A stretch of 50,340 nt of DNA. It comes from a virus. The notes beneath the pieces are model-generated. The model was not told the origin of the DNA and did not search any database. It was given only the letters and a program-made list of their open reading frames with translations. The stretch spans positions 1 to 50,340 of the IMG/VR virus record IMGVR_UViG_3300021247_000232; one strand, written 5' to 3'. This document shows, in pieces, positions 3,906-48,550 of the stretch (the first letter of the stretch is position 1; each line of letters opens with the position of its first letter). Both the position numbers and the translations under genes were made by a program.

Positions 3906-3907
3906 TT

Positions 3908-12214: not shown

Positions 12215-12268
12215 AGTGTCAGCCTTCCAAGCTGTTCGTCGTGGGTTCGATTCCCATCGTCCGCTCCA
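12194..12268 (+). tRNA. tRNA-Gly(TCC)
   Basis: Full cloverleaf: GCGGACG/CGTCCGC acceptor, anticodon loop CTTCCAA, TTCGATT T-loop, encoded TCCA with U73. Its first 21 bases are also the 3' end of the homing endonuclease ORF. Reads GGA. Confidence 0.93.
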
Positions 12269-30172: not shown

Positions 30173-30173
30173 C

Positions 30174-30202
30174 TTGACAGTTTATACTATATAGAGTATA
30201 GT
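30174..30202 (+). promoter_or_regulatory. Consensus promoter with operator-like palindrome
   Basis: TTGACA (30174-30179), 17 bases, TATAGT (30197-30202). The spacer and -10 contain the inverted repeat ATACT..AGTAT, which could bind a repressor. No ORF follows for 300 bases; it likely drives tRNA-Ser and the genes after it. Confidence 0.65.
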
Positions 30203-30302
30203 ATGTGTTAGAGGATTGTGAGTGGACTGTAATTGACTGGGAACTCTCGCTAATCAATATCGAAGTGGAGGCCGTAACCACTATAAGAAAACGGTGCGAA
30301 TT

Positions 30303-30390
30303 GGATAGATGGCCGAGAGGCTTAAGGCGCCAGTCTTGAAAACTGGAGAACTGAAAGGTTCCGTGGGTTCGAATCCTACTCTATCCGCCA
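30303..30390 (+). tRNA. tRNA-Ser(TGA)
   Basis: GGATAGA/TCTATCC, CCAGT-CTTGAAA-ACTGG, long variable arm, TTCGAAT T-loop, GCCA. Reads UCA. Confidence 0.94.
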
Positions 30391-30501
30391 ATATCGGGAC
30401 GAAGCAAGAGTAACTGAGACAACTTGCTGAATGGATAACTGCTGGTAAAACCGTTAAAAAACCTTCTCAGGTTGTGCAGATGATCCTAGATCCCGGCCCT
30501 A
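30391..30501 (+). other. Structured spacer
   Basis: CGGGA/TCCCG ends can pair around GCAAG/CTTGC and AACC/GGTT hairpins. No T-loop or CCA. May be another irregular RNA. No coding potential. Confidence 0.35.
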
Positions 30502-30514
30502 AAAGGAGATACTA

Positions 30515-30661
30515 ATGAGTAAAGATTGCGGATGTGGAAGAAGTCCAACTGGAAAATGTATCGGTTGGCACGGGTTGACAAATGAACAATATTCTGTTAA
30601 AATACAAGAATATGAAAAGAAGCAACTAACGGAATCAGCACCGCAATTGCTGAAGGAATAA
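30515..30661 (+). CDS. CDGSH-like cysteine-rich protein, 48 aa
   Basis: ATG follows AAAAGGAGAT. CGCGRSPTGKCIGWH has the C-x-C-xx-S...C-x-G-x-H layout of CDGSH iron-sulfur proteins, though one residue shorter between Ser and the third Cys, and with Ile for Asp. The rest is a charged helix. It could bind a 2Fe-2S cluster or zinc. It ends just before tRNA-Phe. Confidence 0.6.
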   Translation: MSKDCGCGRSPTGKCIGWHGLTNEQYSVKIQEYEKKQLTESAPQLLKE

Positions 30662-30663
30662 AA

Positions 30664-30739
30664 GCAACCTTGGTGAAGCTGGTGCTCACGTTCGCCTGAA
30701 GAGCGAAAGAACTCTGTTCGATCCAGAGAGGTTGCACCA
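30664..30739 (+). tRNA. tRNA-Phe(GAA)
   Basis: GCAACCT/AGGTTGC, TTCGC-CTGAAGA-GCGAA, CTCTG-TTCGATC-CAGAG, ACCA. Confidence 0.93.
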
Positions 30740-30753
30740 TTTGGGAAGTGAAA

Positions 30754-31350
30754 ATGATAAAAGTTGATACAGGGTCTTCCATCATTGCGAGGTATGATAA
30801 TGTTCTTCCTCCGCATGTATGTAATAAAATTATCAAGTACATTCTTAAGGAAATACGAGAGAAAAAAGTCGCTGCAAATGGGTTATTGCCTTGGCAAAAT
30901 AGCGACACCTTCGACTTCGTGAAAGTTAGAGACAAAGAGATTAGAGCTGAAATTGATCTTTATAGGTTTACTCTAACTCAGCTTGTATCCAAAAATTATG
31001 ATGAGATAGTTTATCCACATTTCTCCGATCTAGTCGTCTGGAGAAAAGGTATGAAAATGGACTTTCATAAAGATGATGGATATGAAGGCCCTGATGAAGA
31101 CGTATTAAGAACACGTAAGTATAGCACAATTCTTTATCTTAATGATGATTATCTTGGCGGTGAAACAGTCATTCATCAAGCAAACAAGCCAGACTATGTT
31201 AGTACACCAAAACAAGGTTCAGTCGTGATATTCAAGAGCAATGAAGAATGTGAACACGGCGTCAATGAAATACTGGAAGGTACAAGATATACTATTGCAA
31301 GTTGGTTTTCTTTAGATATCAATGATTGTGAAGTAGTAGACAAACACTAA
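30754..31350 (+). CDS. 2OG-Fe(II) oxygenase (prolyl 4-hydroxylase-like)
   Basis: Hydroxylates a protein or small-molecule substrate using 2-oxoglutarate, oxygen and Fe(II). FHKDDG holds the HxD iron ligands, YLNDDYLGGETVI follows, and EHGVNEILEGTRYTIASWF gives the distal His and the Arg that binds 2-oxoglutarate. About 198 residues. ATG 30754 follows GGAAG at 6 bases. Such enzymes are frequent in T4-like cyanophages; substrate unknown. Confidence 0.9.
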   Translation: MIKVDTGSSIIARYDNVLPPHVCNKIIKYILKEIREKKVAANGLLPWQNSDTFDFVKVRDKEIRAEIDLYRFTLTQLVSKNYDEIVYPHFSDLVVWRKGMKMDFHKDDGYEGPDEDVLRTRKYSTILYLNDDYLGGETVIHQANKPDYVSTPKQGSVVIFKSNEECEHGVNEILEGTRYTIASWFSLDINDCEVVDKH

Positions 31351-31357
31351 AAATAAT

Positions 31358-31433
31358 GCCGCTGGGACGGTGTTGGCCATCGTGCCCTCCTCATAAGGGG
31401 GATAACCCAGTTCGAAACTTGGCAGCGGCACCA
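31358..31433 (+). tRNA. tRNA-Met(CAT)
   Basis: GCCGCTG/CAGCGGC, D-stem ACG/CGT, CCCTC-CTCATAA-GGGGG, T-loop TTCGAAA, ACCA. Third CAT tRNA of the array; one of the three may be initiator or Ile2. Confidence 0.88.
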
Positions 31434-31453
31434 AATTTTTTAAAGGATAATCA

Positions 31454-31804
31454 ATGTACGTATATAATTGCAAAGTCTTAAACATTGTAGATGGCGATAC
31501 TATCGATATTGAAATAGACCTTGGATTCAATATCAAAGTCAAGGAGCGCGTTCGTCTCCTTGGTCTTGATACACCAGAGGTATTCGGTCCAAATGCTGTA
31601 GCAGAAGGCACTGTTGCATCTGACTTCACTAAGAAGTGGATAAGCGACCGTCAAGCTATCTGGGATAGATTTAGCTACCATAGCATCAAGTATAATGCTA
31701 AGGACAAGTATGGTCGTAGTCTAGGTATTCTAATGTGGACAGGTACCAAGTTAGCCGAAAGCTTAAATGATGCTATCGTAGCATCAGGTAATATCAAAAA
31801 GTAA
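31454..31804 (+). CDS. Thermonuclease-like protein (SNase fold)
   Basis: Staphylococcal-nuclease-type Ca-dependent nuclease. IVDGDTIDIEIDLGF, RVRLLGLDTPEV and DKYGRSLG contain the conserved Asp, Arg, Asp, Glu and Arg positions. 116 residues with no signal peptide, so it acts in the cytoplasm, perhaps in host nucleic-acid breakdown. The ATG follows AAAGGAT. Confidence 0.88.
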   Translation: MYVYNCKVLNIVDGDTIDIEIDLGFNIKVKERVRLLGLDTPEVFGPNAVAEGTVASDFTKKWISDRQAIWDRFSYHSIKYNAKDKYGRSLGILMWTGTKLAESLNDAIVASGNIKK

Positions 31805-32016
31805 AAACAAATGTCTGCTCCGACGGGAGCGGGCCGAGTGCAAGGAAATGACCGCGCGTCAAGAGCGGTTAACTTGGCTAGATGGTGTGGTGCCCATGCG
31901 CGAGTGGCGAGAGCCGAAGGCGTACTGTCTCCTCCCAAGAGAATCTAGGCTATCACGTTGAACAGGTATCTGGACCGTGATTTGTGGGTGTACCCGAATC
32001 CCACCTCACCTTATTT
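31805..32016 (+). ncRNA. GC-rich structured RNA, unknown
   Basis: More than 200 bases with no credible ORF and far higher GC than the flanking genes. Stems: GCTCC-GACG-GGAGC, ACCGC/GCGGT, a GNRA hairpin GGC-GAGA-GCC, CACG/CGTG, and GTGGG/CCCAC around an 11-base loop. It has no CCA and is not a tRNA. Likely a non-coding RNA. Confidence 0.45.
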
Positions 32017-32057
32017 CATAAATACTTCACGGTCAATCAAGGCCGAAATGAGGTATT
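32017..32057 (+). promoter_or_regulatory. Late promoter inside an RBS-masking hairpin
   Basis: CATAAATAC (32017-32025) overlaps AATACTTCA (32021-32029), which pairs over 9 bp (one G-U) with TGAGGTATT (32049-32057), the ribosome-binding site of the gene at 32061. Confidence 0.6.
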
Positions 32058-32060
32058 AAC

Positions 32061-32234
32061 ATGCTAAACACACTAGTTGTATTAGTTCTTTTAGCCGTTG
32101 TTGCTTGGGGTCTTTGGACTCTCTGGCAGAGTGGTTGGGACGTTAAGAAGGCAGGCGCTGCTCTAATCGCTGCTGGCGCTGCTGCTTGGTTGTGGATCCA
32201 TGATTCCATCACAGCACTAACTTCTGGAATGTAA
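32061..32234 (+). CDS. Membrane protein, 57 aa
   Basis: Two hydrophobic segments (TLVVLVLLAVVAWGLW and AALIAAGAAAWLWI) separated by a short basic linker with Trp residues. TGAGG lies 8 bases before the ATG but within the hairpin above. It resembles small holin-like proteins in outline only. It is probably late-expressed. Function unknown. Confidence 0.65.
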   Translation: MLNTLVVLVLLAVVAWGLWTLWQSGWDVKKAGAALIAAGAAAWLWIHDSITALTSGM

Positions 32235-32251
32235 TAATAAGAACCGTCGTT

Positions 32252-32346
32252 GGCCCGTGACGGTATATAAATCTTCGGGGTGTAAGTTCCTGCCTTGACC
32301 CTTCCATAAGGAATCACTGATCGCAGTAACCGCTAACGGGCCTCCA
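32252..32346 (+). tRNA. tRNA-like without T-arm
   Basis: GGCCCGT/ACGGGCC pairs perfectly over 7 bp and ends TCCA, but the interior has no TTCRA T-loop and no readable anticodon arm. Possibly a relic or another irregular RNA. Confidence 0.4.
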
Positions 32347-32353
32347 ATTTTAT

Positions 32354-32427
32354 GCCCCCTTAGTTCAATGGTAGAACTTCGGTTTTACATACCGACTGCG
32401 GCAGTTCGATTCTGTCAGGGGGTACCA
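32354..32427 (+). tRNA. tRNA-Val(TAC)
   Basis: GCCCCCT/AGGGGGT, TCGGT-TTTACAT-ACCGA, TTCGATT T-loop, ACCA. Reads GUA. Confidence 0.92.
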
Positions 32428-32442
32428 TTTAGAGAGAGCAAC

Positions 32443-32616
32443 ATGGAAACGAAGACCAGATCAATTGTTAAGGCTATTACCTGGCGCATCATTGCGACAT
32501 TGATCGCTTTCGTTTTTGTTGGCTTTACAGCAGCCATTCTTATTAATGTTGTTCAGACAATAGCATATTACTTCCATGAGCGTGGATGGGTCCACATCAA
32601 ATGGGGTAAAGAATAA
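32443..32616 (+). CDS. DUF2061 membrane protein, 57 aa
   Basis: METKTRSIVKAITWRIIATLIAFVFVGFTAA..NVVQTIAYYFHERGWVHIKWG is the DUF2061 pattern: a basic start, two transmembrane helices and YYxHExxW near the C-terminus. The family is common in proteobacteria and cyanophages; function unknown. ATG 32443 follows AGAGAGAG; the longer ORF upstream runs into tRNA-Val and is not used. Confidence 0.85.
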   Translation: METKTRSIVKAITWRIIATLIAFVFVGFTAAILINVVQTIAYYFHERGWVHIKWGKE

Positions 32617-32618
32617 AC

Positions 32619-32701
32619 GCGGACGTGGTGGAACGGTATACACACTGGTCTTAGAAGCCAGCGCCTCGTGCTTGAGAGTTCGAATCTCTCCGTCCGCACC
32701 A
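32619..32701 (+). tRNA. tRNA-Leu(TAG)
   Basis: GCGGACG/CGTCCGC, CTGGT-CTTAGAA-GCCAG, class II variable arm, ACCA. Starts 2 bases after the DUF2061 stop. Reads CUA. Confidence 0.93.
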
Positions 32702-32706
32702 ACAAC

Positions 32707-32780
32707 GCCTCTATAGTATAAAGGTAGTACACGGCTTTGGTAAAGCCGAGACACAGGATCGATACCTGTTAGAGGCACCA
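32707..32780 (+). tRNA. tRNA-Thr(GGT)
   Basis: GCCTCTA/TAGAGGC, CGGCT-TTGGTAA-AGCCG, ACAGG-ATCGATA-CCTGT, ACCA. Confidence 0.92.
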
Positions 32781-32794
32781 TTTAGAGGTACATA

Positions 32795-33178
32795 ATGATT
32801 GAGTGTTTAGTTCTTGGTGATAGCATTGCAGTTGGTGTTGGTTCAGTATCACCACAATGCCAGACAATCGCAAAAGTTGGAATCAATAGTAAGAACTTTA
32901 TTGTTTCCAGAAAACATATTCCACATGCAAACACTACAATTATTTCCCTCGGTTCAAATGATGGAAATGCAGACTTCTCAAAATACCTAAATCAACTTCG
33001 TGGAAAGATATCTGGAAAAGTTGTCTGGATACTTTCCGCTAACAATGCAAAAGCAAGGAAGATTGCGCTAAATATTGCTAGACAAAACGGCGATAGTGTT
33101 GTATACTTATCTTCGTTCGCTACTGCTGATGGAGTTCATCCGAAGAATTACTCGGCCGTAGCAAGAAAAGCTTTATAG
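32795..33178 (+). CDS. SGNH-type hydrolase, 127 aa
   Basis: GDSIAVG (8-14) is block I with the nucleophile Ser, SLGSND is block III with the Asn, and DGVHP near the end is block V with Asp and His. This is a minimal GDSL-like hydrolase that could deacylate or deacetylate cell-surface glycans. No signal peptide, so it may be carried on virions or act on lysis. Preceded by GAGGTACATA. Confidence 0.82.
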   Translation: MIECLVLGDSIAVGVGSVSPQCQTIAKVGINSKNFIVSRKHIPHANTTIISLGSNDGNADFSKYLNQLRGKISGKVVWILSANNAKARKIALNIARQNGDSVVYLSSFATADGVHPKNYSAVARKAL

Positions 33179-33183
33179 AATAA

Positions 33184-33258
33184 CGCCCGCTTAGTTAAGT
33201 GGCATAACATCGGTTTTGTAATCCGAGGTTGGGAGTTCGATTCTCTCAGCGGGCACCA
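33184..33258 (+). tRNA. tRNA-Thr(TGT)
   Basis: GCCCGCT/AGCGGGC, anticodon loop TTTGTAA with a T-T closing mismatch, TTCGATT T-loop, ACCA. Reads ACA. Confidence 0.92.
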
Positions 33259-33277
33259 TTTACTCAGGAACTTAACA

Positions 33278-33619
33278 ATGCGTATTCTAGTATGCGGCGG
33301 TCGTGACTTCAATGATGAAATCCTCCTTTCAAACACCCTTGAATCCCATATATGTTCTAATCTAACAATCATTCATGGTGCAGCTAGAGGCGCAGATGAA
33401 CTTGCTGGTACTTGGGCAGCACATCATGGATTTCCAACAGAAACATATCCAGCTAACTGGGATAAATATGGCAAACGAGCAGGCTATATTCGTAATACTC
33501 AAATGCTCAATGAAGGCAAACCAGATCTTGTCATAGCCTTTCCAGGTGGTAAAGGTACTCAGATGATGATCAATTTAGCGGAGGCAGCCGGTGTGCCGGT
33601 TGTTAGGATAAATGATTAG
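33278..33619 (+). CDS. DUF2493 (YspA-like, SLOG fold) protein
   Basis: MRILVCGGRDFND, IIHGAARGADELAGTWA, YPANWDKYGKRAGYIRNTQML and VIAFPGGKGTQ are the DUF2493/YspA blocks of the SLOG nucleotide-binding superfamily, in the same group as DprA and LOG proteins. It may bind or process nucleotides. 113 residues. Overlaps the next gene by 8 bases. Confidence 0.88.
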   Translation: MRILVCGGRDFNDEILLSNTLESHICSNLTIIHGAARGADELAGTWAAHHGFPTETYPANWDKYGKRAGYIRNTQMLNEGKPDLVIAFPGGKGTQMMINLAEAAGVPVVRIND

Positions 33620-34112
33620 AAAAGCATTAGACTTAGACGAAGTAAGAGCATTCATCAACGCTCAGTCTCCTGAGACAAAGGTATATCTTGGTGGTGACTC
33701 AGAACGCTTCCAGATTGACGGCGTATGGTATGCTGACTACATCAACGTTGTAGTTGTTCACAAGAACGGCAAGAACGGTTGTAAGGTGTTTGGTGGTATC
33801 GTGCGTGAGCGTGACTATGACCAGCAGAAGGACAAGCCTCGTATGCGTCTAATGAACGAAGTATACAAGACTGCTGGTTTGTACATTGAACTGGCCGATG
33901 TGCTTGAGGATCGTGAGGTTGAAATCCATCTGGACATTAACCCAGACTCAAAGCATGGCTCTTCATGTGTTATAAACGAAGCTGTTGGTTACATTCGTGG
34001 TATGTGTAACATCGTACCTCTTGTGAAGCCTAATGCTTGGGCTGCTTCTTACTGTGCTGACCGTTACAAGGACGCTATTCAGCACATGACCCACTCTAGA
34101 GAAGTAGCATGA
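33612..34112 (+). CDS. YkuK-like (DUF458) RNase H-fold protein
   Basis: VYLGGDSERF near the start, then INVVVVHKNGKNGCKVFGG, EIHLDINPDSKHGSS and KPNAWAASYCADR match YkuK/DUF458, predicted RNase H-fold nucleases. The Asp residues in GGDSE and DINPD are likely metal ligands. 166 residues. Possible RNA processing or degradation; substrate unknown. Confidence 0.8.
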   Translation: MIRKALDLDEVRAFINAQSPETKVYLGGDSERFQIDGVWYADYINVVVVHKNGKNGCKVFGGIVRERDYDQQKDKPRMRLMNEVYKTAGLYIELADVLEDREVEIHLDINPDSKHGSSCVINEAVGYIRGMCNIVPLVKPNAWAASYCADRYKDAIQHMTHSREVA

Positions 34113-34216
34113 ACATAGATACTCTAATAACTACCATGCTTTTGATTTACATCATTGGCATGGTAGCTATCGTTCGTAACAACAATGTAAGGTTTGAAAA
34201 GAATCATGATGAATAA
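34109..34216 (+). CDS. Single-span membrane peptide, 35 aa
   Basis: ATGA overlap with the previous stop; MLLIYIIGMVAIV is a transmembrane helix. The 3' end overlaps the L,D-transpeptidase start by 11 bases, so the genes are coupled. Function unknown. Confidence 0.45.
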   Translation: MNIDTLITTMLLIYIIGMVAIVRNNNVRFEKNHDE

Positions 34217-34634
34217 GATTCTAATTGGTATTTGTTTTTTTGTTGCAGCACTTGCATTTCTAATCGATTATGCTAGGGCTGATGTTTATATTCTAATTGA
34301 TAAGACAGAACAACAGATGTATGTAGAAACGCCAGTAGGTAATTTCGTATGGGAAGTTTCTACAGCAAGGTCTGGTTATCATACGCCAACCGGCGAATTT
34401 AAACCTTATCGTTTAGAACCAATTCATTATTCTAAGAAGTATGATAACGCACCAATGCCGAATTCTATATTCTTTCATGGCGGATATGCCATTCATGCTA
34501 CGTATGATATCAAGCATCTTGGTCGACCTGCATCACACGGCTGCGTCCGTCTTAGCCCTCAGAATGCTAAATGGTTATATCGTATGATTCAAGAAGAGGG
34601 TCGAGAGAATACATATATCAAGATTATAGACTAA
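34206..34634 (+). CDS. L,D-transpeptidase (YkuD domain)
   Basis: Cross-links or modifies peptidoglycan in the periplasm. A signal-anchor (ILIGICFFVAALAFLIDYARA) precedes a YkuD domain: VSTARSGYHTPTGEF, IFFHGGYAIHAT and the catalytic SHGCVRLSPQNA with Cys. ATG 34206 is chosen; a TTG at 34194 is open. About 142 residues, a minimal domain. May remodel the wall during infection. Confidence 0.88.
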   Translation: MMNKILIGICFFVAALAFLIDYARADVYILIDKTEQQMYVETPVGNFVWEVSTARSGYHTPTGEFKPYRLEPIHYSKKYDNAPMPNSIFFHGGYAIHATYDIKHLGRPASHGCVRLSPQNAKWLYRMIQEEGRENTYIKIID

Positions 34635-34638
34635 ATAC
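34631..34638 (+). promoter_or_regulatory. Late-promoter-like CTAAATAC
   Basis: Overlaps the stop codon of the L,D-transpeptidase and lies 7 bases before tRNA-Ser(GCT). Confidence 0.4.
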
Positions 34639-34644
34639 AATAAA

Positions 34645-34734
34645 GGAAGGATGGCCGAGAGGCCGAAGGCACCTCACTGCTAACGAGGCGTACCCTAACC
34701 GGTACCGTGGGTTCGAATCCCACTCCTTCCGCCA
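34645..34734 (+). tRNA. tRNA-Ser(GCT)
   Basis: GGAAGGA/TCCTTCC, CCTCA-CTGCTAA-CGAGG, long variable arm with a GGTACC-containing stem, TTCGAAT T-loop, GCCA. Reads AGC/AGU. Last tRNA of the array. Confidence 0.93.
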
Positions 34735-34736
34735 TT

Positions 34737-34761
34737 TATAAATATGGGTAAACCATAGGAG
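34737..34761 (+). promoter_or_regulatory. Late promoter with hairpin next to the RBS
   Basis: TATAAATA (34737-34744) runs into TATGG (34743-34747), which pairs with CCATA (34753-34757); AGGAG (34757-34761) begins at the end of the right arm. A late transcript would start inside the loop. Confidence 0.6.
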
Positions 34762-34768
34762 ATTTAAA

Positions 34769-35212
34769 ATGGAAGAACTAGTAGAAAAGATGAAGTCTGT
34801 CTTAGGTAGTACCTTTGCAGCTGGACTTAAAGCGCATGGATATCATTGGAATGTTATTGGTTCTGATTTCCCACAGCTACATGATTTCTTTGCAGAGATT
34901 TATGGAGAGTATGAAGGATCAATCGATGACATTGCAGAGCATATTCGTCAGTTAGATTCATTCTCTCCTGGCACAGTTGCTAGAATGGCAGAACTATCTG
35001 TTATTTCAGAAGACGAAAAGATTCCAACAGCAGAGAAAATGGTAGCAAATCTTCTATCGTGTAATGAAGCTCTATTAAATGTTACGACAGAAGCTTATGA
35101 AATGGCCGAAACGCAGAAGAAGTATGGTCTATCTAATTATCTCCAAGGTCGTATCGAAGCACTTACTAAGTTGAAATGGAAGATTAAAGCCACAATGGGT
35201 AAAAAGTCTTAA
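34769..35212 (+). CDS. dps: Dps-like ferritin family protein
   Basis: Dps proteins form 12-subunit shells that store iron with peroxide and can shield DNA. KAHGYHWNVIGSDFPQLHDFFAEIYGEYEGSIDDIAEHIRQL holds the ferroxidase residues (His, His, Asp, Glu) in the usual spacing. 147 residues, no DNA-binding tail beyond a few Lys. It sits behind a consensus late promoter, so it is probably made late and may protect newly made genomes or be packaged. Confidence 0.88.
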   Translation: MEELVEKMKSVLGSTFAAGLKAHGYHWNVIGSDFPQLHDFFAEIYGEYEGSIDDIAEHIRQLDSFSPGTVARMAELSVISEDEKIPTAEKMVANLLSCNEALLNVTTEAYEMAETQKKYGLSNYLQGRIEALTKLKWKIKATMGKKS

Positions 35213-35231
35213 CTATTGAAAGTCCTATATT

Positions 35232-35957
35232 ATGAAAGATATTATACTCTACCGAATACATCGAAGAAGCACTGTACATGTTCGAAAAGGTGTGCGTGAA
35301 AGAGAATGGATGGAGAATACGCAAGATAAGTTTGCTTATCGGTGTCTACCTCTAACGATTGCAAACCAACATGGTTATGAAGTCTGCTCTTCTCAAAAAA
35401 TTAAGCTGAAGTGGAACGGCGGCAGCGAAATATCAGATATTACTGTTGATGGTCCAAGTGAAATTTGTGTATCTCATTTTGGAAATGGTGTGATTACTTT
35501 TCATGCTGGTTTCCTTGTTCGTACTCCCGAGAATGTAAATCTATATGTTTCCGGAACACCTAACAATCCAAAGCGTGGTATTACACCACTAACTGGCATC
35601 GTTGAGACTGACTGGAATCCAGCTACATTTACGATGAATTGGATGATCACCGAACCAAATTATGAAATTGTATTTGAACCATTCGAACCGTTTCTATTCT
35701 TCTTCCCTGTCGAGAGGTCATATACAGAAAGTTTCCGCAGTATAGTTAAACCTCTTGAGTTGCATGAAGAAGAGGCTAAGAACTATGAAGCGTGGTCAAA
35801 AAGTAGGGATGACTTCGAAGAGTTGATGATTCAAAAACCCGAAACACCCACTGACAAGACATGGGAAAAGCATTATTTCAGAGGTGAATATAAAGACGGG
35901 CGTAAGTGTCCAGTAAATCATCAAACAAAGATCAAGCTAAACCTCAAAGAAGAATAA
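35232..35957 (+). CDS. DUF6065-like protein, 241 aa
   Basis: REWMENTQDKFAYRCLPLTIANQHGYEV and the following SGTPNNPKRGITPLTGIVETDW block resemble DUF6065 proteins, which often neighbour 2OG oxygenases and glycan loci. Strand-rich, cupin-like. A C-terminal basic tail follows. Function unknown. The gene ends at a strong terminator. Confidence 0.7.
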   Translation: MKDIILYRIHRRSTVHVRKGVREREWMENTQDKFAYRCLPLTIANQHGYEVCSSQKIKLKWNGGSEISDITVDGPSEICVSHFGNGVITFHAGFLVRTPENVNLYVSGTPNNPKRGITPLTGIVETDWNPATFTMNWMITEPNYEIVFEPFEPFLFFFPVERSYTESFRSIVKPLELHEEEAKNYEAWSKSRDDFEELMIQKPETPTDKTWEKHYFRGEYKDGRKCPVNHQTKIKLNLKEE

Positions 35958-36021: not shown

Positions 36022-36747
36022 ATGGCAGGCGCATCGGCAGAAAGGCAAGAAACAGGGTTTGTTGAAGCTGTTAAGAAAGCTGTTCAAAAAAACAAGAATA
36101 ATCCAATCACTGTTCAAGCCGGCAAGACTAAAATTGATAATGTTATTGGAGCCAAGAAGTATAGTGGTCGTCAAGCGAGTGGTTCTGAACCATATACAGA
36201 TGTAATTCTTGTAAGAAAGAATAAGAAAGACGTTAATCTATCTCTAAAAGGTGAAGCAGCACCATCATTAGCTGGCGGCGGACTTAGAGGCCTAGAAGCT
36301 ATCTTGCCTGGCATCACATCTAAATTTATGAAGTCTGCCTTAAAAAAACTACTATCACAAGGTTTAAAAGCTGGCGATAAAGTTCCTGATACATACGGAC
36401 AAATAGATGAATTAAATAAAATAAAAATTGTTGTAGGTACTGCCGCTATGGGCGGACCAATTGATTATATGTATATTGGTCCAATGTCAGTTATACCTGA
36501 CTATAATAAAGATAATAATGTGCTATCTCTTAATGGTACATTTACAGATTCGAAAACATTTGCTAAAACACATGACCTGTATTTTCGTTTAAGAGCGAGA
36601 AGAGAAGATCAAAGATTTGATCCAAACGCTGAACAAGGCGGTATTCCAAAAATATATGGAAAATCACCTTCACGCGGAGATAGTGCAGGAAGAATAGTAG
36701 TAACTGATAGCGTACCATCAACAGCAGTAATTGTGGCAGTAAAATGA
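36022..36747 (+). CDS. Possible PD-(D/E)XK-type nuclease, 241 aa
   Basis: YTDVILVRKNKKDVNLSLKGEAAPSLAGGG has the D...SLK layout of restriction-endonuclease-fold proteins: an Asp at the strand end, then a Lys two residues after a second acidic or polar position. The remainder is a conserved T4-like phage pattern that ends IVVTDSVPSTAVIVAVK. Function unproven; could also be structural. First gene of a late operon; overlaps the next gene by 4 bases. Confidence 0.55.
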   Translation: MAGASAERQETGFVEAVKKAVQKNKNNPITVQAGKTKIDNVIGAKKYSGRQASGSEPYTDVILVRKNKKDVNLSLKGEAAPSLAGGGLRGLEAILPGITSKFMKSALKKLLSQGLKAGDKVPDTYGQIDELNKIKIVVGTAAMGGPIDYMYIGPMSVIPDYNKDNNVLSLNGTFTDSKTFAKTHDLYFRLRARREDQRFDPNAEQGGIPKIYGKSPSRGDSAGRIVVTDSVPSTAVIVAVK

Positions 36748-37979
36748 TTTTATTCACTCAATATCTAAACGAGTCAAAAGAAGGTAAGAACCTTCACCTA
36801 GAACATTTGGAGGACGAAGTACTCAATGGAGGAGTTTCTGGAACAAGAGGTGCAATATCCTTTTTACAGTCTCTTCGTGATATGCTTGCTGGTCACGCTA
36901 CTAGTAAGTCAGTGAATTTAACAACAAAGTGGGATGGTGCGCCCGCCGTCTTTGCTGGTATCAATCCAGAGAACGGCAAGTTCTTTGTTGGTACAAAAGG
37001 AGTATTTGCACAAAATGCAAAGCTCAATTATACTAATGCAGATATTGATACTAATCATCCAGGCGCAGGCCTCAACACAAAATTAAAGATCGCCCTAAAG
37101 TATCTACCTGAACTTGGTATTACCGGTGTAATGCAAGGCGACATGATGTTTACTACAGCCGATCTTAAGAGTGAAAACATCGAAGGTAAGAGTTACATTA
37201 CATTTCAGCCAAATACAATCGTATATGCCATACCTGAAGATACTGGTTTAGCTAAGTCTATTAAAGCGGCTAAGATGGGTATTGTTTGGCATACCACATA
37301 CAATGGTGATACAATGGCCGATATGAAGGCTTCGTTTGGTGCAGACATTGGCTCATTCAAGAACTCTCGCAATGTTTGGTATCGTGATGCATCATTCGTT
37401 GACGCAACTGGTACTGCTACATTTACAAAGCAAGAGACTGATGCACTTAATGCTATCCTATCACAAGCAGGCACTCTATTCAGAAGCATATCACCACGCA
37501 CACTAAACCAGATTGCAACAAACGATACTTACAAGATCGCAATCAAGGCATGGAACAATCTTAAGGTTCGTGAAGGAAAAGAAATCACAAACACCGCGCA
37601 ACATGTAGCGGGACTAATTGCCACAACTGAAGAGAAGATGAATAAACTAATCCTTGATGCTAAGAAAGCTGACACAAAGCAGAAGCGTCAAATGGAAAAA
37701 AAGATCGTTATTGGATTTTATAAGACCAATAAAAACGAGCTAAAGAAGATTTTTGACTTGCAAAACTTGCTGGTTCGTGCTAAAAATATGGTTGTAAGAA
37801 AACTACAGCAGGTGCAAGACAGTGTTGGAACATATCTTAGAACAGACGAATCAGGTTTAAAGGTAACAGCGCCAGAAGGTTTTGTTGCTATCGACCATAT
37901 TGGTAATGCCGTCAAGTTAGTGGACAGATTAGAATTTTCACAAGCCAACTTTAACGCAACAAAAAACTGGGCAAAATAA
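36744..37979 (+). CDS. KxDG nucleotidyltransferase (RNA/DNA ligase-like), 411 aa
   Basis: TTKWDGAPAVFAG carries the KxDG active-site motif of covalent nucleotidyltransferases (ligases, capping enzymes); FFVGTKGVFA and MQGDMMF fit motifs III and IV, and EGFVAID..NAVKLVDR near residue 390 fits motif V. The protein belongs to a family seen in T4-like cyanophages (DUF6267-like). The N-terminus MILFTQYLNES resembles T4 capsid-targeting peptides (MKTYQEFIAE). It may seal RNA or DNA, possibly after delivery with the genome. Activity untested. Confidence 0.7.
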   Translation: MILFTQYLNESKEGKNLHLEHLEDEVLNGGVSGTRGAISFLQSLRDMLAGHATSKSVNLTTKWDGAPAVFAGINPENGKFFVGTKGVFAQNAKLNYTNADIDTNHPGAGLNTKLKIALKYLPELGITGVMQGDMMFTTADLKSENIEGKSYITFQPNTIVYAIPEDTGLAKSIKAAKMGIVWHTTYNGDTMADMKASFGADIGSFKNSRNVWYRDASFVDATGTATFTKQETDALNAILSQAGTLFRSISPRTLNQIATNDTYKIAIKAWNNLKVREGKEITNTAQHVAGLIATTEEKMNKLILDAKKADTKQKRQMEKKIVIGFYKTNKNELKKIFDLQNLLVRAKNMVVRKLQQVQDSVGTYLRTDESGLKVTAPEGFVAIDHIGNAVKLVDRLEFSQANFNATKNWAK

Positions 37980-38923
37980 TGTTAGGATTTAAACAATACT
38001 TAAACGAAATGGCAAAACTTATTGGCAGAGGAGAGGATCCAAATGCCGATGAAAAAGAAATAGAAAATATTTTTAGTAGAGTACAATCACACCCTAATAA
38101 AAAAGAACGTGATCATTACACATCACATCCTGAAGGAATAAAACGATTTGCTGAAAAGCATCTAATGACTGGTAATAGTGATCGGGATACTGGCACAAGA
38201 ATAGCAGCCAATGCGGCTCAGCAACTAATGAACCATAAATCTAAAAAACACGGTTCAGTCAGATCGATCATTAGAGCTGGAGGTAGTGTAAAGAGAAGTG
38301 GCGCCACAGCAGCTAAAGTAAGACCTGAGTATTCTTCTCTAGGCGGTAAAAATTCTACATCAAGAGCCGATATTGCAGTCTTTGATAAAAAAGGTAAACA
38401 AAAGCATACGATTTCTGTTAAGAAAGATGATGCACAAGTTGCATCGGCAGAATCTGGAGAATTTAGATCACTAGGCCATGCAGCCGCAGACAGAATGCAT
38501 CCAAAAGTTAGAGATGCTGTAAAAAAGAAAGTCGATGCTATCTCTAAGATGCAAAAAGCATCTTCAAATGCAAAGTCTGATGATGAATATAAATCACATG
38601 CAAAGAAAGCAAATGCAGCTTTACAGAGATTAAGACAAGATCATCCTGAATGGGAACATCATGTAGCAAGAGAAGCAGCAACAGGCCATGCTAAATTTGG
38701 TAAAGATTCACCAGGTTCAGCAGACAATATGCTAACATATAGTGGTAAGACAGGTGAAGCTAAGATTTGGAATAGTGAGAAGACAGGATCACCTTACAAA
38801 GGTTTAAAAATGGAAATCAGAGCAGGCAAAGGTCGTAAGGGTAAAAGAAATCCTAAAGATAAACCTGGTACTGATAGTAGAGCAAGAAGACAAGCAGCAT
38901 TCAGAGTTGAACCTAAAAAGTGA
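37979..38923 (+). CDS. Possible PD-(D/E)XK nuclease with capsid-targeting-like N-terminus
   Basis: SRADIAVFDKKGKQKHTISVKK has the D-x(n)-S-V-K pattern of restriction-fold nucleases. MLGFKQYLNEM at the N-terminus resembles T4 internal-protein targeting peptides, with LNE as a possible prohead-protease site. Lys/Arg-rich overall and probably nucleic-acid binding. 314 residues. Shares one base with the preceding stop. Confidence 0.6.
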   Translation: MLGFKQYLNEMAKLIGRGEDPNADEKEIENIFSRVQSHPNKKERDHYTSHPEGIKRFAEKHLMTGNSDRDTGTRIAANAAQQLMNHKSKKHGSVRSIIRAGGSVKRSGATAAKVRPEYSSLGGKNSTSRADIAVFDKKGKQKHTISVKKDDAQVASAESGEFRSLGHAAADRMHPKVRDAVKKKVDAISKMQKASSNAKSDDEYKSHAKKANAALQRLRQDHPEWEHHVAREAATGHAKFGKDSPGSADNMLTYSGKTGEAKIWNSEKTGSPYKGLKMEIRAGKGRKGKRNPKDKPGTDSRARRQAAFRVEPKK

Positions 38924-38932
38924 AATATTATA

Positions 38933-39628
38933 ATGAAATATAACGCATATCAGAAAAAACACAAAGACGAAGTTCGTACCTTGAACGTATGGGACATTGA
39001 TGATACTCTAGGCAAGACAGATGCTAGGGTTGTCATAATAAAGGGCGGTAAAACAACAAAAGTATTAAGCCCCGGCGAGTATAATAATTATAAGCTTCAA
39101 CCTGGCGAAAGCTTAGATTTCTCTCAGTTTCGTTCTGGTAAAATCTTTCGTGATACATTCAAACCTATCGCAACTGTACTTGATCGTGCCAAAGAAATTG
39201 TTTGGAATCAATCTGAGAATTCAAATTCTATCATCATTACAGCTAGAGCAGACTTTGATGACCACAAAGAGTTTCTAGAAGCTTTTCGTGACCATGGATT
39301 CCCTATTGATCATGTATACGTTGAACGTTCTGGTAACTTAGCCAAGCTAAAGCCAAGTTCACCTGCACATATCAATAAGGGCGTCATTCTGAAACGTTAC
39401 CTCTCTTCAGGTAAATGGGATCGTGTCCGTATGTGGGATGATCATGAAAAGAACTTAGACATGCTATTCAAAGTCGCAGCTATGTTTCCAAATGTAGAAG
39501 CGGTGGGTTATCTAGTTAAAGATGGTCGTGTTATCAAGTACGGCCATGATCAAAAGAAGAAGTCCTTGAGTGAAAATGTCAGGTCTGTAGTTAAAGGTTC
39601 AGTCAAAAAGAGCTTATACGAAAGATAA
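38933..39628 (+). CDS. HAD-superfamily phosphatase (Pnkp 3'-phosphatase-like)
   Basis: VWDIDDTLGKTDARV (19-33) is HAD motif I with DxD; IIITARADFD is motif II and MWDDHEKN is motif IV. 231 residues. The closest functional analogue is the 3'-phosphatase half of T4 Pnkp, which removes 3' phosphates before RNA ligation, though a nucleotidase role is possible. The C-terminus (KKSLSENVRSVVKGSVKKSLYER) has a possible prohead-protease site. Encoded between ligase-like and kinase-containing genes. Confidence 0.8.
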   Translation: MKYNAYQKKHKDEVRTLNVWDIDDTLGKTDARVVIIKGGKTTKVLSPGEYNNYKLQPGESLDFSQFRSGKIFRDTFKPIATVLDRAKEIVWNQSENSNSIIITARADFDDHKEFLEAFRDHGFPIDHVYVERSGNLAKLKPSSPAHINKGVILKRYLSSGKWDRVRMWDDHEKNLDMLFKVAAMFPNVEAVGYLVKDGRVIKYGHDQKKKSLSENVRSVVKGSVKKSLYER

Positions 39629-39635
39629 TAATCCA

Positions 39636-39670
39636 CTAAATACCTCTATAGATTAACGTTCCTATAGAGG
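39636..39670 (+). promoter_or_regulatory. Late promoter inside an RBS-masking hairpin
   Basis: CTAAATAC (39636-39643) is followed by CCTCTATAG (39643-39651), which pairs perfectly over 9 bp with CTATAGAGG (39662-39670). The AGAGG of the next gene (ATG 39677) is in the right arm. Confidence 0.65.
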
Positions 39671-39676
39671 GAAATA

Positions 39677-42600
39677 ATGAAGAAGTTAGTAATTTATCCG
39701 GGGCGCTTTCAGCCTTTCCATAAGGGTCATGCCCAGGTTTTCAATTGGCTTAAGAATAAGTTTGGCGATGCTATCATAGCAACATCCGATAAAGTAGAAG
39801 CGCCAAAAAGCCCATTCAATTTCAAAGAAAAAAAGCAGATGATGAAACTCGCGGGAGTTCCAGCGTCTAAGGTTAAGCAAGTCTTAAATCCTTATATGGC
39901 CCGCGAAATCCTTAAAGATTATGATCCAAAAACGACAGTGCTAATCTTCGCAGTGTCGCAAAAGGACATGGAAGAAGATCCTCGCTTCTCGTTCAAACCT
40001 ACTAAATCTGGTAAACCTGGCTATCTCCAACCATATGCCGGTAACGAAAATAAACTGAGATCGTTTGGTAATGCTGATAAGATGCAGGGATATGTTGTCG
40101 TAACACCAACATTTACATTTGATGTTCTTGGTAAACCAGCTACATCCGCATCTGAACTTCGCAAACAATTTGTATCGCTAGATAATAAGACACAGAAAGA
40201 GTTTGTCAAAGATTTATTTGGCAAGTATGATGCTGACATTCATAAGCTAATGAAAACAAAAATTGGCGCCATGATGAAGCAACCAAAAACATTAAAGCAG
40301 CTTAAAGAAGAAATGACACGCAAAGAACTAGCACCTATGCTGGACTCTTTCGTGTCTTTTGCGTCTGATAAGCTTGGTCTAAAATCTATGCCTAATCTTA
40401 GATATAAGACTGATAAAGACGATTACAATTCATTCGCAGCATACAATCCATCGTCTAATGAACTATCGGTGTCTACTATGAATAGACATCCAATGGATAT
40501 ATTTCGTTCTATCGCGCATGAACTTGTACATCACAAACAGAATGAAGATGGTAAGCTAGGCAAAGATATTGCCAAAGAAGGTTCTACTGGATCTGATATA
40601 GAGAACGAAGCAAACTCAGAAGCTGGCAAGATCATGCGTTGGTTTGCCAAAGAACAACCACATATGTTCGGTAAGTCTTATGTAGTTGAAACAAATACAG
40701 CAGCAATTGGCGGTAGTATCAGAGGTTTAGGCAATGTGACTGGAGAAATTTCGCCTACAGAAGTATCTCAATACGTACTAGATAATCAAGCATATACTGA
40801 AAATCTTAAGAGTGGTAATAGAACAGACAGTCTTTGGAATTCAAAATCTGATCCAAATGATGACTTCAATTGGTATGACGAAAAAGAAGCAAAGATGCAT
40901 AAAGCTAATGGTCAGAAGACCTTTAAAGCTATGAGATCGCAACTAAACGAAGGTATCAATGATCCAGGTAAACTAAAAGCCATATTCTTGGCTGGCGGAC
41001 CAGGTTCTGGTAAAGACTTCGTTATGAACAAGACACTTGTTGGTAACGGTCTAAGAGAAATCAATTCTGATACTGCATTTGAATTCCTCATGAAGAGACA
41101 CGGTCTTGACATGGAAATGCCAGATAAAGAAAGAGTTGAAAGAGAAATTGTTCGTGGTCGTGCTAAGAATATGACCAGTAAGAAAGAGATATCTTCTCTA
41201 GCCGGTCGTTTAGGCCTTATAGTAAATGGTACTGCTGATGATCTAGAAAAAATCAAGACAGTTAAATCAGAACTAGAAGACCTTGGTTACGATACCATGA
41301 TGGTCTTTGTCAATACATCTAATGAAGTTTCACGCGAACGTAACGTTGAACGCGGCAAATCAGGTAATCGTAAAGTGCCTGATGGTACTGATAAGCAGGG
41401 CGTGCCAGATAATTCGCCAAATATCAGACAAGAAAAATGGGATCTAGCGCAAAAGAATATTGGCGCTTTGATGAATATTTTTGGTAAAGATAACTTTACT
41501 GTAATCGACAACACGGCTGATATTCGTAAGGTGACACCTGAAGATAAAGTTAGAATTGAAGCAGACTTCAATCGCGTTCGTCGCATGGCAATGCAGTTTG
41601 CTCAATCACCTGTAAAAAATAAAAGAGGTAATGCTTGGGCTGAAAGAAGTGCAAGATACAGAGGCGTCACACAATATTCAGCGCCAAAATCAATATCACA
41701 AATCAGACAACAGAAGCCTGTTGAAACTCCAAAAGCTATTATTAAACCATCTAGTGAGATAATGGATCAAGCCAGAAGACTTGGTCTATCATACTATGGT
41801 TTTGGTCGTTTTGGTAGAAAAGTAAACGGCATTAACAAAGTGCTTTTCCACAGCGTTGGTGGAAAACTGATAAAAGTACAAATGATGAATGAAGACCTAC
41901 GTAAGTGGTTTAAACAGAAATGGGTTAGATTTGATACTAAGGGTAATATTAAAGGTGATTGTGCGCGCGAACCAGGAGAAGGTAAACCTAAGTGTCGTCC
42001 ACTCGCATCTGCAAGAGCAATGGATAAAGAAGAACGTGCTAAATCAGCAAGAAGAAAAAGAAGAGAGGACCCTGTGGCAGATAGATCAGGAAAAGGCGGA
42101 AAGCCAATTAATGTTCAGACAGAATCTTTAGAGCAACAAGCAGCAATCGCTATAGCTAAGAAAAAGTCTGGTAAATATGATAAAGAGGGTAATAGGATTA
42201 AAGAAGAATCTGTTTTGATGGAAAAAAATATTCCAACTAATCCTGGATTATGGAGCAAAGCTAAGTCAATGGCAAGAAGTAAGTTTGATGTTTATCCATC
42301 AGCTTATGCTAATGGTTGGGCATCAAAATGGTATAAATCAAAAGGTGGTGGTTGGAAAACATCTACAAATGAATCATGCTGGGATGGTTATGAGAAGAAA
42401 GGCATGAAGAATAAAAACGGTCGTGAAGTTCCTAATTGCGTGCCTGTAGAAGAGGGCCGTGAAGCTATAAACATGCAGAAAGAATATAAGAAGTATAATA
42501 GACTGAAGGGTAAAATTACCCGCAAACTGGCTGAAAATATTGATAATCGATTTGAGACATTCATGGAAGAACATGGCGCCGGTGATTGGGGTACCAATAA

Positions 42601-43240
42601 GTTAACTAATCGCTATAAGAAAGATACGCCAGGTCAAACCAAGAAGAAGATCGTCGCTAAAGAAGATAATGTTATACCGAGAGGTGGTCTACCAGTTGGT
42701 GACGGAATTGGTCCAGAAACCACACAGTACAGACCAATGACCGCTGTCGGATATGCTTTAGCTGAATCGATTGTAAACTGGATGAACAACCCAAAGACAC
42801 AAGAGAGGTTTGCTGAGAAGTACGGTGACCTAGCAGAACAAAAACTAACGGAAGCTGCCATAAAGCTAGAACAATGTGGTTGTGGCAGTGATATGCCTAA
42901 GGGTCGGAAGAGCGTCAAGAAGATCAAAGAGGGTCTTGGACTAGGTTATAACGACCAAAGTTCAATTGGTGTTCAAAGAAAGCAAGAGATTGAAGAGAAA
43001 TCTGAGACATGGCAGACCAAAGAAGGTCAAAATCCAAATGGCGGTCTTAATGCTAAAGGTAGAGCGCAGTACAATAGAAAGCACGGCGCACACTTAAAGA
43101 GACCTCAGCCAGAAGGTGGTTCACGTAGAGATTCATATTGTGCAAGATCAGCAGGTCAATTGAAAATGTGGCCTAAAGCTGCAAAAGATCCAAATTCTAG
43201 ACTTAGAAAAGCTAGAAGAGCATGGAACTGCGAAGAATAA
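39677..43240 (+). CDS. 1187-aa fusion: NMN adenylyltransferase-like, zincin, P-loop kinase, phage domains
   Basis: Residues 1-200: cytidylyltransferase fold with FHKGH (14-18) and SASELR (157-162), like nicotinamide-nucleotide adenylyltransferases. Residues 214-340: zincin with HELVH (281-285). Residues 431-615: P-loop kinase with GGPGSGKD (440-447), zeta-toxin or polynucleotide-kinase-like. Residues 738-930: phage domains with FKQKWVRFD, NPGLWSKAKSMARSKFDVYPS and a CWDGYEKKGMKNKNGREVPNC finger-like motif. Residues 1115-1187: SRRDSYCARSAG, seen in other phage proteins. LKEE (209), LNEG (423), MNED (737), IKEE (841) and MEEH (963) look like T4 prohead-protease sites, so it may be a packaged polyprotein cut into pieces. 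It follows its own late promoter. Confidence 0.85.
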   Translation: MKKLVIYPGRFQPFHKGHAQVFNWLKNKFGDAIIATSDKVEAPKSPFNFKEKKQMMKLAGVPASKVKQVLNPYMAREILKDYDPKTTVLIFAVSQKDMEEDPRFSFKPTKSGKPGYLQPYAGNENKLRSFGNADKMQGYVVVTPTFTFDVLGKPATSASELRKQFVSLDNKTQKEFVKDLFGKYDADIHKLMKTKIGAMMKQPKTLKQLKEEMTRKELAPMLDSFVSFASDKLGLKSMPNLRYKTDKDDYNSFAAYNPSSNELSVSTMNRHPMDIFRSIAHELVHHKQNEDGKLGKDIAKEGSTGSDIENEANSEAGKIMRWFAKEQPHMFGKSYVVETNTAAIGGSIRGLGNVTGEISPTEVSQYVLDNQAYTENLKSGNRTDSLWNSKSDPNDDFNWYDEKEAKMHKANGQKTFKAMRSQLNEGINDPGKLKAIFLAGGPGSGKDFVMNKTLVGNGLREINSDTAFEFLMKRHGLDMEMPDKERVEREIVRGRAKNMTSKKEISSLAGRLGLIVNGTADDLEKIKTVKSELEDLGYDTMMVFVNTSNEVSRERNVERGKSGNRKVPDGTDKQGVPDNSPNIRQEKWDLAQKNIGALMNIFGKDNFTVIDNTADIRKVTPEDKVRIEADFNRVRRMAMQFAQSPVKNKRGNAWAERSARYRGVTQYSAPKSISQIRQQKPVETPKAIIKPSSEIMDQARRLGLSYYGFGRFGRKVNGINKVLFHSVGGKLIKVQMMNEDLRKWFKQKWVRFDTKGNIKGDCAREPGEGKPKCRPLASARAMDKEERAKSARRKRREDPVADRSGKGGKPINVQTESLEQQAAIAIAKKKSGKYDKEGNRIKEESVLMEKNIPTNPGLWSKAKSMARSKFDVYPSAYANGWASKWYKSKGGGWKTSTNESCWDGYEKKGMKNKNGREVPNCVPVEEGREAINMQKEYKKYNRLKGKITRKLAENIDNRFETFMEEHGAGDWGTNKLTNRYKKDTPGQTKKKIVAKEDNVIPRGGLPVGDGIGPETTQYRPMTAVGYALAESIVNWMNNPKTQERFAEKYGDLAEQKLTEAAIKLEQCGCGSDMPKGRKSVKKIKEGLGLGYNDQSSIGVQRKQEIEEKSETWQTKEGQNPNGGLNAKGRAQYNRKHGAHLKRPQPEGGSRRDSYCARSAGQLKMWPKAAKDPNSRLRKARRAWNCEE

Positions 43241-46834: not shown

Positions 46835-48550
46835 ATGAAAAAGTTTAAGGAATATCTATCAGAAGAAGTTGTACCACAAGCTTTATCTGACAAAGGATTT
46901 ATTGGTGTTGAAGACGAATCTGTTAGAGATAACATCAATAGTCTTCTAAACGGTGTTACTGCAAGACCTGTTGTTACGCCTTATATTTCTCTTGAGAGAG
47001 TACGCAAAGTGCTTTCTTATTATCACATCTTTCTCCCTGCACATCAGTTTATGCAGGGAGATTGTGGTAATAAAGTATTTAATATCAGTCAGTTTGGTGA
47101 GAAGTACGGCCAGACAAATGATGGTAAATTTGTTACAAAATCAGATTCGCCATACTCACTATATTTTGAGTATCAGATGAATGATGCTGGACTATACGAC
47201 ATATATGCTGAAGTTGTTGATGATGATGAACTAGAAGAAATTCTATCAGATTTTGAAGACGAACTAAGCGATGATGATGGTGAAGAAGATAATTCTGAAG
47301 TTGTATCTAATGATCAACAAAATAGCTATCTACTCAACAAAGACGAACATAAGGGTAATGTTCAAGAAGAAAACATCAACGAAATAAAACGTTCTACTGC
47401 CAGAAGAGCAGAAAAGCAAGCAAGATATTTGGCTAAGAATCCGGGCGAAGAAGGTGATGACGAAAACGAGCGTCCAACATATAGAGATCGTGAAGATCAA
47501 GCCAATAATATTAGAAGAATGAGAATAAAAAAACTTGCTAAAGAAGTCTATGATTTCAGAGCCAAGCAAGATGCTGAAGATAATGTTGCTATTAGTAAAT
47601 CATTGAGAAAACCAAGTAAGAAAGCTTGGTGGACAAAAGCAGCTAATAAGAATAAAAAGAAAGCTGTCACTGGCATGGAACCTAGTAGAAAAGGCAATAA
47701 GTATATTGGAGAAAATGAGCAGCTTGATGAGAAAACTATTGCTTCAAAGAAAGCTAAAAAAGGCACTAAGTATAAAGTTAAAGCGACAGAACCCGATAGT
47801 GAAGGATCATACATTAGACTTACACAAGGTAAGAGAAAGATAGATACCGGTGATTATGATCACGGTGCTGGCGCTTTCTTTATGAGAAAAGGAACTTATA
47901 ATTCAGCAAAAGATATGTTGAAGACTGTTAAGGAAGAAGCTCTTGATGAAGTCTCACAAAAAGCAGCTACAGATGCTTATGCTGCTGCTGATGATCCTGG
48001 ATATTATCATCCAAAAGCCGATGATATTCTAAAACATATCAGACGTAAGTTTGGTAAAGAAGCTGAAAAAGGTGCAGAGAATCACGCATATGCCGATCAT
48101 TTTGGCAGAAATACACCAAAGCCAGGCAAAGATTCTCTATCTGGTGGTCTAAGACAATACTTGGATAAGAAACTGACAAAGAAAAATATGATTCCTAGGG
48201 GCACTCAAAAGGCCATGAAGGATAGAATGAATCCTAAAAAGTGGCAAGGTTATGGTAGAAAAGTTGGCGGACCAAAAGGTCTTCTACCTGAAGAAGCTCT
48301 TGATGAAATTGCAAATACCAAAAAAGGTATAATGGCACTAAGAAGAGCAATAGACAAAGCAGCTAAGAATTACTATGATACATATGATGCTGAGACAGAT
48401 GCTAGAGCGGAAGTTCAAAAGAAGAGAACTCCTGAATCTAGAAAAGACGCTGAAAATGCTAGAGCAGCTAGAATAAAAGCAAAAGATCGTGTTATTAAAT
48501 TCCAAAACTATGCTGATAAGAAAGCTAAGGAAAAGACTGACAAAAAATAA
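46835..48550 (+). CDS. Probable internal head protein, 571 aa
   Basis: MKKFKEYLSEE is close to the T4 IpI-IpIII targeting peptide (MKTYQEFIAE), with LSE as a likely gp21-type cleavage site. INEI (near 186), LDEV (near 371) and LDEI (near 490) repeat the pattern inside. Acidic stretch at 130-155 (DDDELEEILSDFEDEL), otherwise Lys-rich and helical. A role as a packaged or scaffold protein is inferred. No known enzyme domain. Confidence 0.7.
   Translation: MKKFKEYLSEEVVPQALSDKGFIGVEDESVRDNINSLLNGVTARPVVTPYISLERVRKVLSYYHIFLPAHQFMQGDCGNKVFNISQFGEKYGQTNDGKFVTKSDSPYSLYFEYQMNDAGLYDIYAEVVDDDELEEILSDFEDELSDDDGEEDNSEVVSNDQQNSYLLNKDEHKGNVQEENINEIKRSTARRAEKQARYLAKNPGEEGDDENERPTYRDREDQANNIRRMRIKKLAKEVYDFRAKQDAEDNVAISKSLRKPSKKAWWTKAANKNKKKAVTGMEPSRKGNKYIGENEQLDEKTIASKKAKKGTKYKVKATEPDSEGSYIRLTQGKRKIDTGDYDHGAGAFFMRKGTYNSAKDMLKTVKEEALDEVSQKAATDAYAAADDPGYYHPKADDILKHIRRKFGKEAEKGAENHAYADHFGRNTPKPGKDSLSGGLRQYLDKKLTKKNMIPRGTQKAMKDRMNPKKWQGYGRKVGGPKGLLPEEALDEIANTKKGIMALRRAIDKAAKNYYDTYDAETDARAEVQKKRTPESRKDAENARAARIKAKDRVIKFQNYADKKAKEKTDKK

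Follow-up and report, generated by a model that had tools for sequence, protein, structure and literature searches.

A conserved gene cluster of marine T4-like phages centred on DUF6267, a probable Rnl1-like covalent nucleotidyltransferase

Introduction

Do the genes that follow a large tRNA array in a virus fragment encode a nucleic acid repair set that travels in the phage head? The fragment, IMG/VR record IMGVR_UViG_3300021247_000232 (50,340 bases, analysed at full length and called here the window), encodes a T4-type DNA polymerase, a UvsX-like recombinase and a DnaB-like helicase. The original prediction, made from the letters of the window, was that three consecutive late genes lying between 36022 and 43240 supply the ligase, phosphatase and kinase activities of the T4 Pnkp/Rnl repair system, might mend tRNAs and could enter the host with the DNA. 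The analysis below shows that these genes belong to an accessory cluster conserved among marine T4-like phages, and leaves it evenly balanced whether its core is a packaged Rnl1-like nucleotidyltransferase with a phosphatase and a kinase as partners. Its central component is a protein of the family DUF6267, encoded at 36744; coordinates of all features are given in Table 1.

Results and discussion

Motifs of the DUF6267 protein

The 36744 protein matches Pfam PF19782 (DUF6267) and also phrog_455, both of them families with no assigned function. DUF6267 is present in 466 phage records of the isolate collection, and a literature search found no paper naming it. The predicted KxDG motif is indeed present: KWDG lies at residues 62-65 and is accompanied by a full nucleotidyltransferase motif set. 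Alignment of 74 diverse homologues, 36-82% identical to the window protein, gave 41 invariant columns, including K62, D64, G65, K85, G132, D133, E378, G379, V381 and K391. In a wider set of DUF6267 proteins the only exceptions to the motifs were truncated sequences, save that two shorter forms have alanine in place of G132.

In ligases and capping enzymes the motifs run in the order I, Ia, III, IV, V. The DUF6267 protein has the superfamily motifs in that order (KxDG for I, K/R for Ia, D/E for III, E/D-G for IV and K for V). When the 41 invariant columns were permuted 200,000 times, this arrangement never arose. Of 339 DUF6267 proteins 334 contain the motif string, compared to 1 of 2048 other open reading frames (ORFs). 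Where the window protein reads KWDG ... VGTKG ... EGFVAIDHIGNAVKLV, T4 Rnl1 (gp63) reads KEDG ... FKSKG ... EGYVAVMKDGSHFKIK, ie the two are alike in KxDG, in a downstream K, in EG(F/Y)VA and in a K 13 residues later. They differ in that DUF6267 has a helical insert of about 130 residues before motif IV, and in the absence of a significant profile or fold match between them. On the strength of the motifs DUF6267 is probably a covalent nucleotidyltransferase, while for true ligase activity we see the chances as equal either way. ATP or NAD+ would supply Lys62 with AMP, after which the enzyme would activate or join nucleic acid ends.

Table 1. Coordinates of the cluster and of other features in the window (aa, amino acids; NMNAT, nicotinamide mononucleotide adenylyltransferase; PNK, polynucleotide kinase; AF2, AlphaFold2)
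Feature	Position	Strand	Basis or remark
P0001, 241 aa	36022..36747	+	conserved D60...S74xK76 motif; relatives have a homologue upstream of DUF6267
DUF6267 protein, 411 aa, probable Rnl1-like covalent nucleotidyltransferase	36744..37979	+	PF19782 E 1.2e-111; invariant motif residues; AF2 model
Capsid-targeting 10-mer MILFTQYLNE, N-terminus of DUF6267 protein	36744..36773	+	T4 IPII/IPIII spacing (4, 7, 8, 10)
Motif I KWDG, residues 62-65	36927..36938	+	K, D, G invariant 74/74
Motifs IV-V EGFVAIDHIGNAVK, residues 378-391	37875..37916	+	E, G, V, K invariant
P0003, 314 aa	37979..38923	+	capsid-targeting start MLGFKQYLNE; D...S-V-K motif
HAD phosphatase, 231 aa	38933..39628	+	phrog_415 'polynucleotide kinase' E 1.6e-6; HAD motifs
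NMNAT/cytidylyltransferase-like domain, residues 1-212 of 1187-aa protein, GRFQPFHKGH	39677..40312	+	PF01467 E 1.1e-10; NMNAT matches
Zinc-metallopeptidase-like domain, HELVH at residues 281-285	40313..40726 (HELVH 40517-40531)	+	HELVH conserved, no family match
P-loop kinase domain, PNK/zeta group, GGPGSGKD, RNxxR lid	40928..41653	+	residues ~418-659
Prohead-protease-like site LNE/G just before kinase domain	40943..40951	+	LxE kept in homologues
DUF6321, residues 1118-1183	43028..43225	+	PF19846 E 1.3e-14
571-aa protein, capsid-targeting start MKKFKEYLSE	46835..48550	+	tag pattern; no family match

The kinase, its fused domains and the HAD phosphatase

A P-loop kinase predicted at residues 431-615 of the 1187-aa protein was confirmed, with limits nearer to 418-659, as was the NMNAT-like domain said to share the chain. 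Two further parts of the chain, the metallopeptidase-like domain and DUF6321, had not been noticed earlier; the HELVH motif of the former, placed between the NMNAT-like and kinase domains, is kept in 45-46 of 47 homologues. A confident model of residues 418-659 (predicted local distance difference test, pLDDT, 86.1) had as its top Foldseek match the Pnkp of Clostridium thermocellum (4gp7, E 3.3e-6, template modelling score 0.66 on the target), with zeta toxin a close second. The kinase profile matched T4 Pnkp along the domain (hhalign probability 95%, E 3.7e-8), with an RNxxR...VP stretch common to both, and membership of the PNK/zeta group of P-loop kinases is clear. The P-loop ends in GKD, as in the deoxynucleoside monophosphate kinase gp1 of T4, and in GKS, GKT or GKG in the homologues. 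Clostridium Pnkp, a bacterial RNA repair enzyme, is the closest solved structure; however, the window kinase is fused to NMNAT-like and peptidase-like domains and not to a phosphatase and a ligase.

The same family relations allow the kinase to be read as a zeta-toxin-like enzyme phosphorylating a small host metabolite, in which case the cluster would serve host take-over and not repair. The zeta family (PF06414) shares the fold, ranks second in Foldseek and is the best Pfam family (Zeta_toxin in 60/60 members, best 5e-15; AAA_33 in 56/60), and the best PDB sequence match is zeta toxin 1gvn (E 3.3e-6). The window kinase nevertheless has the PNK-like lid stretch found in T4 Pnkp, and its top Foldseek match, Clostridium Pnkp, has the better target coverage; we regard the take-over role as quite unlikely.

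In the HAD protein the motifs DIDDT, TAR, K and DD are intact and conserved over 35 homologues, and family members match acid phosphatase HAD models. The motifs agree with a HAD phosphatase, whereas its proposed part as the phosphatase of a Pnkp is no more than a candidate role: comparison with the T4 Pnkp phosphatase gave no convincing match and comparison with the PDB no useful one. At the threshold applied, the isolate collection yielded no homologue of the HAD protein. The locus resembles T4 Pnkp/Rnl1 in having a PNK/zeta-group kinase with a HAD phosphatase nearby, and differs from T4 Pnkp in that the two are in separate chains. In the clade of the window the phosphatase could strip 3' phosphates and the kinase, fused to its NMNAT-like and metallopeptidase-like domains, could phosphorylate 5' ends.

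Conservation of the cluster in related phages

Neighbours of DUF6267 were counted at loci with enough downstream flank. A HAD gene lies downstream in 35/35 loci of the window's clade, an NMNAT-like gene in 29/35, 39/45, 25/25 and 38/38 loci of four clades, and a kinase gene in 29/35 and 17/25 loci of two clades. The three predicted components therefore do occur together in related phages, and the cluster DUF6267/(HAD)/NMNAT-like/kinase recurs across marine phages. The NMNAT-like gene is the most constant neighbour, and fusions of DUF6267 to a cytidyltransferase-like domain are found in S-PM2 and other phages. Taken together, the counts and the S-PM2-type fusions point to a DUF6267-NMNAT pair of wider occurrence, which the full cluster extends in particular clades.

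The constancy of the NMNAT-like neighbour and its fusion to DUF6267 favour a different explanation, ie a module for the supply or regeneration of NAD+. The NMNAT-like domain would make NAD+ from nicotinamide mononucleotide (NMN) and a NadR-like kinase would make NMN from nicotinamide riboside; the HAD protein would act on nucleotides, DUF6267 would use NAD+ or be unrelated, and the whole would counter NAD+-depleting host defences. The NMNAT-like protein is also the cluster member found in virions, as the NMNAT/cytidylyltransferases of S-SZBM1, S-CREM2 and S-SCSM1 (PMC9146016, PMC10665884, PMC9602691), and fusions of a HIGH-NTase to a P-loop kinase serve NAD+ salvage in jumbo phages (PMC7824862). 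NadR and the phage fusions of this type are like the window protein in that a single chain contains both a P-loop kinase and an NMNAT-like domain. However, the window chain has the peptidase-like domain in between, and its kinase is of the Zeta/AAA_33 type; the NadR-family AAA_28 is not among the Pfam families listed for 60 members. In HTVC008M-type phages, moreover, kinase and NMNAT are separate genes, and an NAD+ module leaves the invariant ligase motif set without a role. Both the NAD+ pathway and the parts it assigns to the HAD and DUF6267 proteins thus seem doubtful to us.

Jumbo phage RNA repair sets (Rnl1/Rnl2, PNK and HAD; PMC7824862) offer a parallel to the Rnl1-like reading, in that a ligase, a kinase and a stand-alone HAD protein occur together in large phages; the ligase families named in the part of that paper covered here do not include DUF6267.

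The capsid-targeting start and the virion

The DUF6267 protein begins with a 10-residue tag like that of the T4 internal proteins IPII and IPIII, both of which begin MKTYQEFIAE. Residues 4 and 7 of the T4 tag matter for targeting, and residues 8 and 10 for processing (PMC9026906). The tag was defined as an N-terminal 10-mer with an aromatic residue at 4 and 7, L or I at 8 and E at 10, and was found on the proteins encoded at 36744, 37979 and 46835. Among ORFs of the fetched loci 263 of 4165 have such a start, compared to a mean of 8.5 after shuffling. It is carried by DUF6267 proteins in 75/77 (close homologues) and 74/80 cases in two groups and in 5/80 of the HTVC008M group, and by 23/95 HAD homologues elsewhere. 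In S-CREM2 the pattern picks the starts of five annotated genes, whose products without exception belong to the published virion proteome (52 proteins of ~219 genes; PMC10665884), for which the chance is about 6e-4 by simple counting. Three of the five are an S-adenosylmethionine hydrolase, an APH-like kinase and a cytidylyltransferase. Injected enzymes of marine T4-like phages may be recognizable by the motif, and the test is a simple sequence-based way of drawing up candidates.

A gp21-type protease is encoded in 9/10 related contigs, the window itself being a 50-kb fragment. In 38/38 full-length homologues of the 1187-aa protein an LxE sequence immediately precedes the kinase domain, and stand-alone kinases have one at their N-terminus as well. 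Because the DUF6267 protein has a T4-type tag, it may be injected with the DNA. It would probably be loaded into the prohead, cut after Glu10 by the gp21-type protease and delivered with the DNA, acting on damaged nucleic acid ahead of new synthesis. The fullest form of this scheme is a head-packaged, injected kit for healing and sealing ends, built on DUF6267 as a new ligase family separate from the classical Rnl1 of related phages and additional to it, with the NMNAT-kinase partner as a protease-cleaved polyprotein; this we consider rather improbable. A very common gene of marine T4-like phages thereby acquires a testable function, that of a nucleotidyltransferase which in some clades bears a targeting tag.

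The window differs from T4 in that a probable enzyme encoded in the replication region bears the tag, and in that other cluster members lack it. For several internal proteins of T4 no enzymatic role is known, and the capsid-targeting start would suit proteins inside the head whose folds derive from enzymes but which serve structure or head maturation, catalysis being unimportant. The invariant residues are the catalytic ones, however, and they are kept in an untagged cyanophage branch, so that a purely structural role is very unlikely.

Evidence against a packaged Rnl1-like core

Several results weigh against this reading, firstly those on the fold. The AlphaFold2 model of the DUF6267 protein (pLDDT 87.7, predicted template modelling score 0.83) has residues 1-17 disordered and the helical insert at 229-355. 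With the whole model, Foldseek gave no PDB match below E 1e-3. In favour of the fold, LigA adenylation domains recur among the weak PDB matches, and in a search of viral structures three RNA ligases or ligase-kinases were among the first named non-family matches (ranks 16, 17 and 19; E 0.06-0.5). The modelled resemblance to ligases is thus suggestive only, and a structural check of the 36744 domain yielded weak LigA and RNA ligase matches but no significant match to a solved ligase. A sequence search of the PDB returned only coiled-coil noise, and no ligase family, that of Rnl1 (PF09511) included, was among the Pfam matches listed for 74 members. Aligned by hhalign to Rnl1 and Rnl2, DUF6267 had its best local match at motifs IV-V, with T4 Rnl1 EGYVAVMKDGSHFK, which was not above shuffled controls (equalled by 1/60 and 6/100 shuffles); the positive control, Rnl1 against Rnl2, was itself weak (E 0.006). 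One match to the DUF6267 fold, BFVD H8ZNG8, is named 'NrdB ribonucleotide reductase A subunit', a probable misannotation.

For the kinase, zeta toxins are no more distant than PNK, and the two are not separable: the structural check placed the domain in the PNK/zeta group, with Clostridium Pnkp as top match, but zeta toxin is equally good. Packaging was predicted for all the proteins, through capsid-targeting or protease-like sites. The DUF6267 tag and the LNE/G site before the kinase are in line with this, but an N-terminal tag is absent from the window's HAD and 1187-aa proteins, as it is from the cyanophage DUF6267 proteins (0/80). In S-SZBM1 only one of four tagged genes was detected in virions (PMC9146016), and the tag test is accordingly good but not perfect. 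The untagged DUF6267 of that phage is not among the listed virion proteins; the tagged cytidylyltransferase adjoining it is.

Rnl1 is also encoded in 3/10 relatives, and on one relative's contig an Rnl1 of ~390 aa lies near a Pnk-like kinase. In a second relative the match is limited to the first part of the family, and the third Rnl1, that of a close relative, is split by an in-frame stop codon, although apparently intact relatives exist. That these 3/10 relatives hold both weakens the notion of DUF6267 as a substitute for Rnl1. Since Rnl1 lies elsewhere in them, the cluster would be a second, different set and not simply their Pnkp/Rnl1 system, and its substrate need not be tRNA. The predicted tRNA number (about 30) was accurate, 31 genes being counted in the window. 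In HAD-bearing loci of the window's clade the tRNA density is 6.3 per 10 kb, compared to 0-1.5 in other groups, a comparison confounded by lineage and by limited flanks. A dense array lies beside the cluster only in this clade and thus lends no independent support to tRNA repair; a link drawn from one lineage does not bear out the proposed mending of tRNAs.

Gene order and surroundings

Along the window the replication genes are followed by most of the tRNA genes and then by P0001, the DUF6267 protein, P0003, the HAD protein, the 1187-aa protein and an 813-aa protein. The ORFs of the predicted run (36022-36747, 36744-37979, 38933-39628 and 39677-43240) are all present, but the ligase-like and HAD genes are not consecutive because P0003 (37979-38923) sits between them. 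Nothing supports their description as late. The cluster adjoins the replication genes, 3' of the polymerase, UvsX and helicase, and has the same place in HTVC008M, Melnitz and cyanophages.

P0003 homologues frequently sit directly upstream of DUF6267 in relatives. P0001 (D60/S74/K76) and P0003 (D131/S146) have in common a conserved D...S-x-K pattern, which is reminiscent of PD-(D/E)xK nucleases and is offered as a lead only. The second largest group of tagged proteins, with 50 ORFs, is headed by MKKFKEFLSE, a start similar to that of the tagged 571-aa protein.

Among the tRNA genes, at 29825-35957, are genes for lytic transglycosylase-like DPBB, 2-oxoglutarate-Fe(II) oxygenase, SNase-like, YspA/SLOG, RNase H-like, L,D-transpeptidase, ferritin-like and DUF6065 proteins. 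What is apparently a sugar-modification cluster lies at 3183-9147, with two genes for nucleotide-sugar epimerases and others that are methyltransferase-like. A homing-endonuclease gene (phrog_314) lies at 11747-12268, and its 3' end overlaps a predicted tRNA-Gly gene at 12194-12268.

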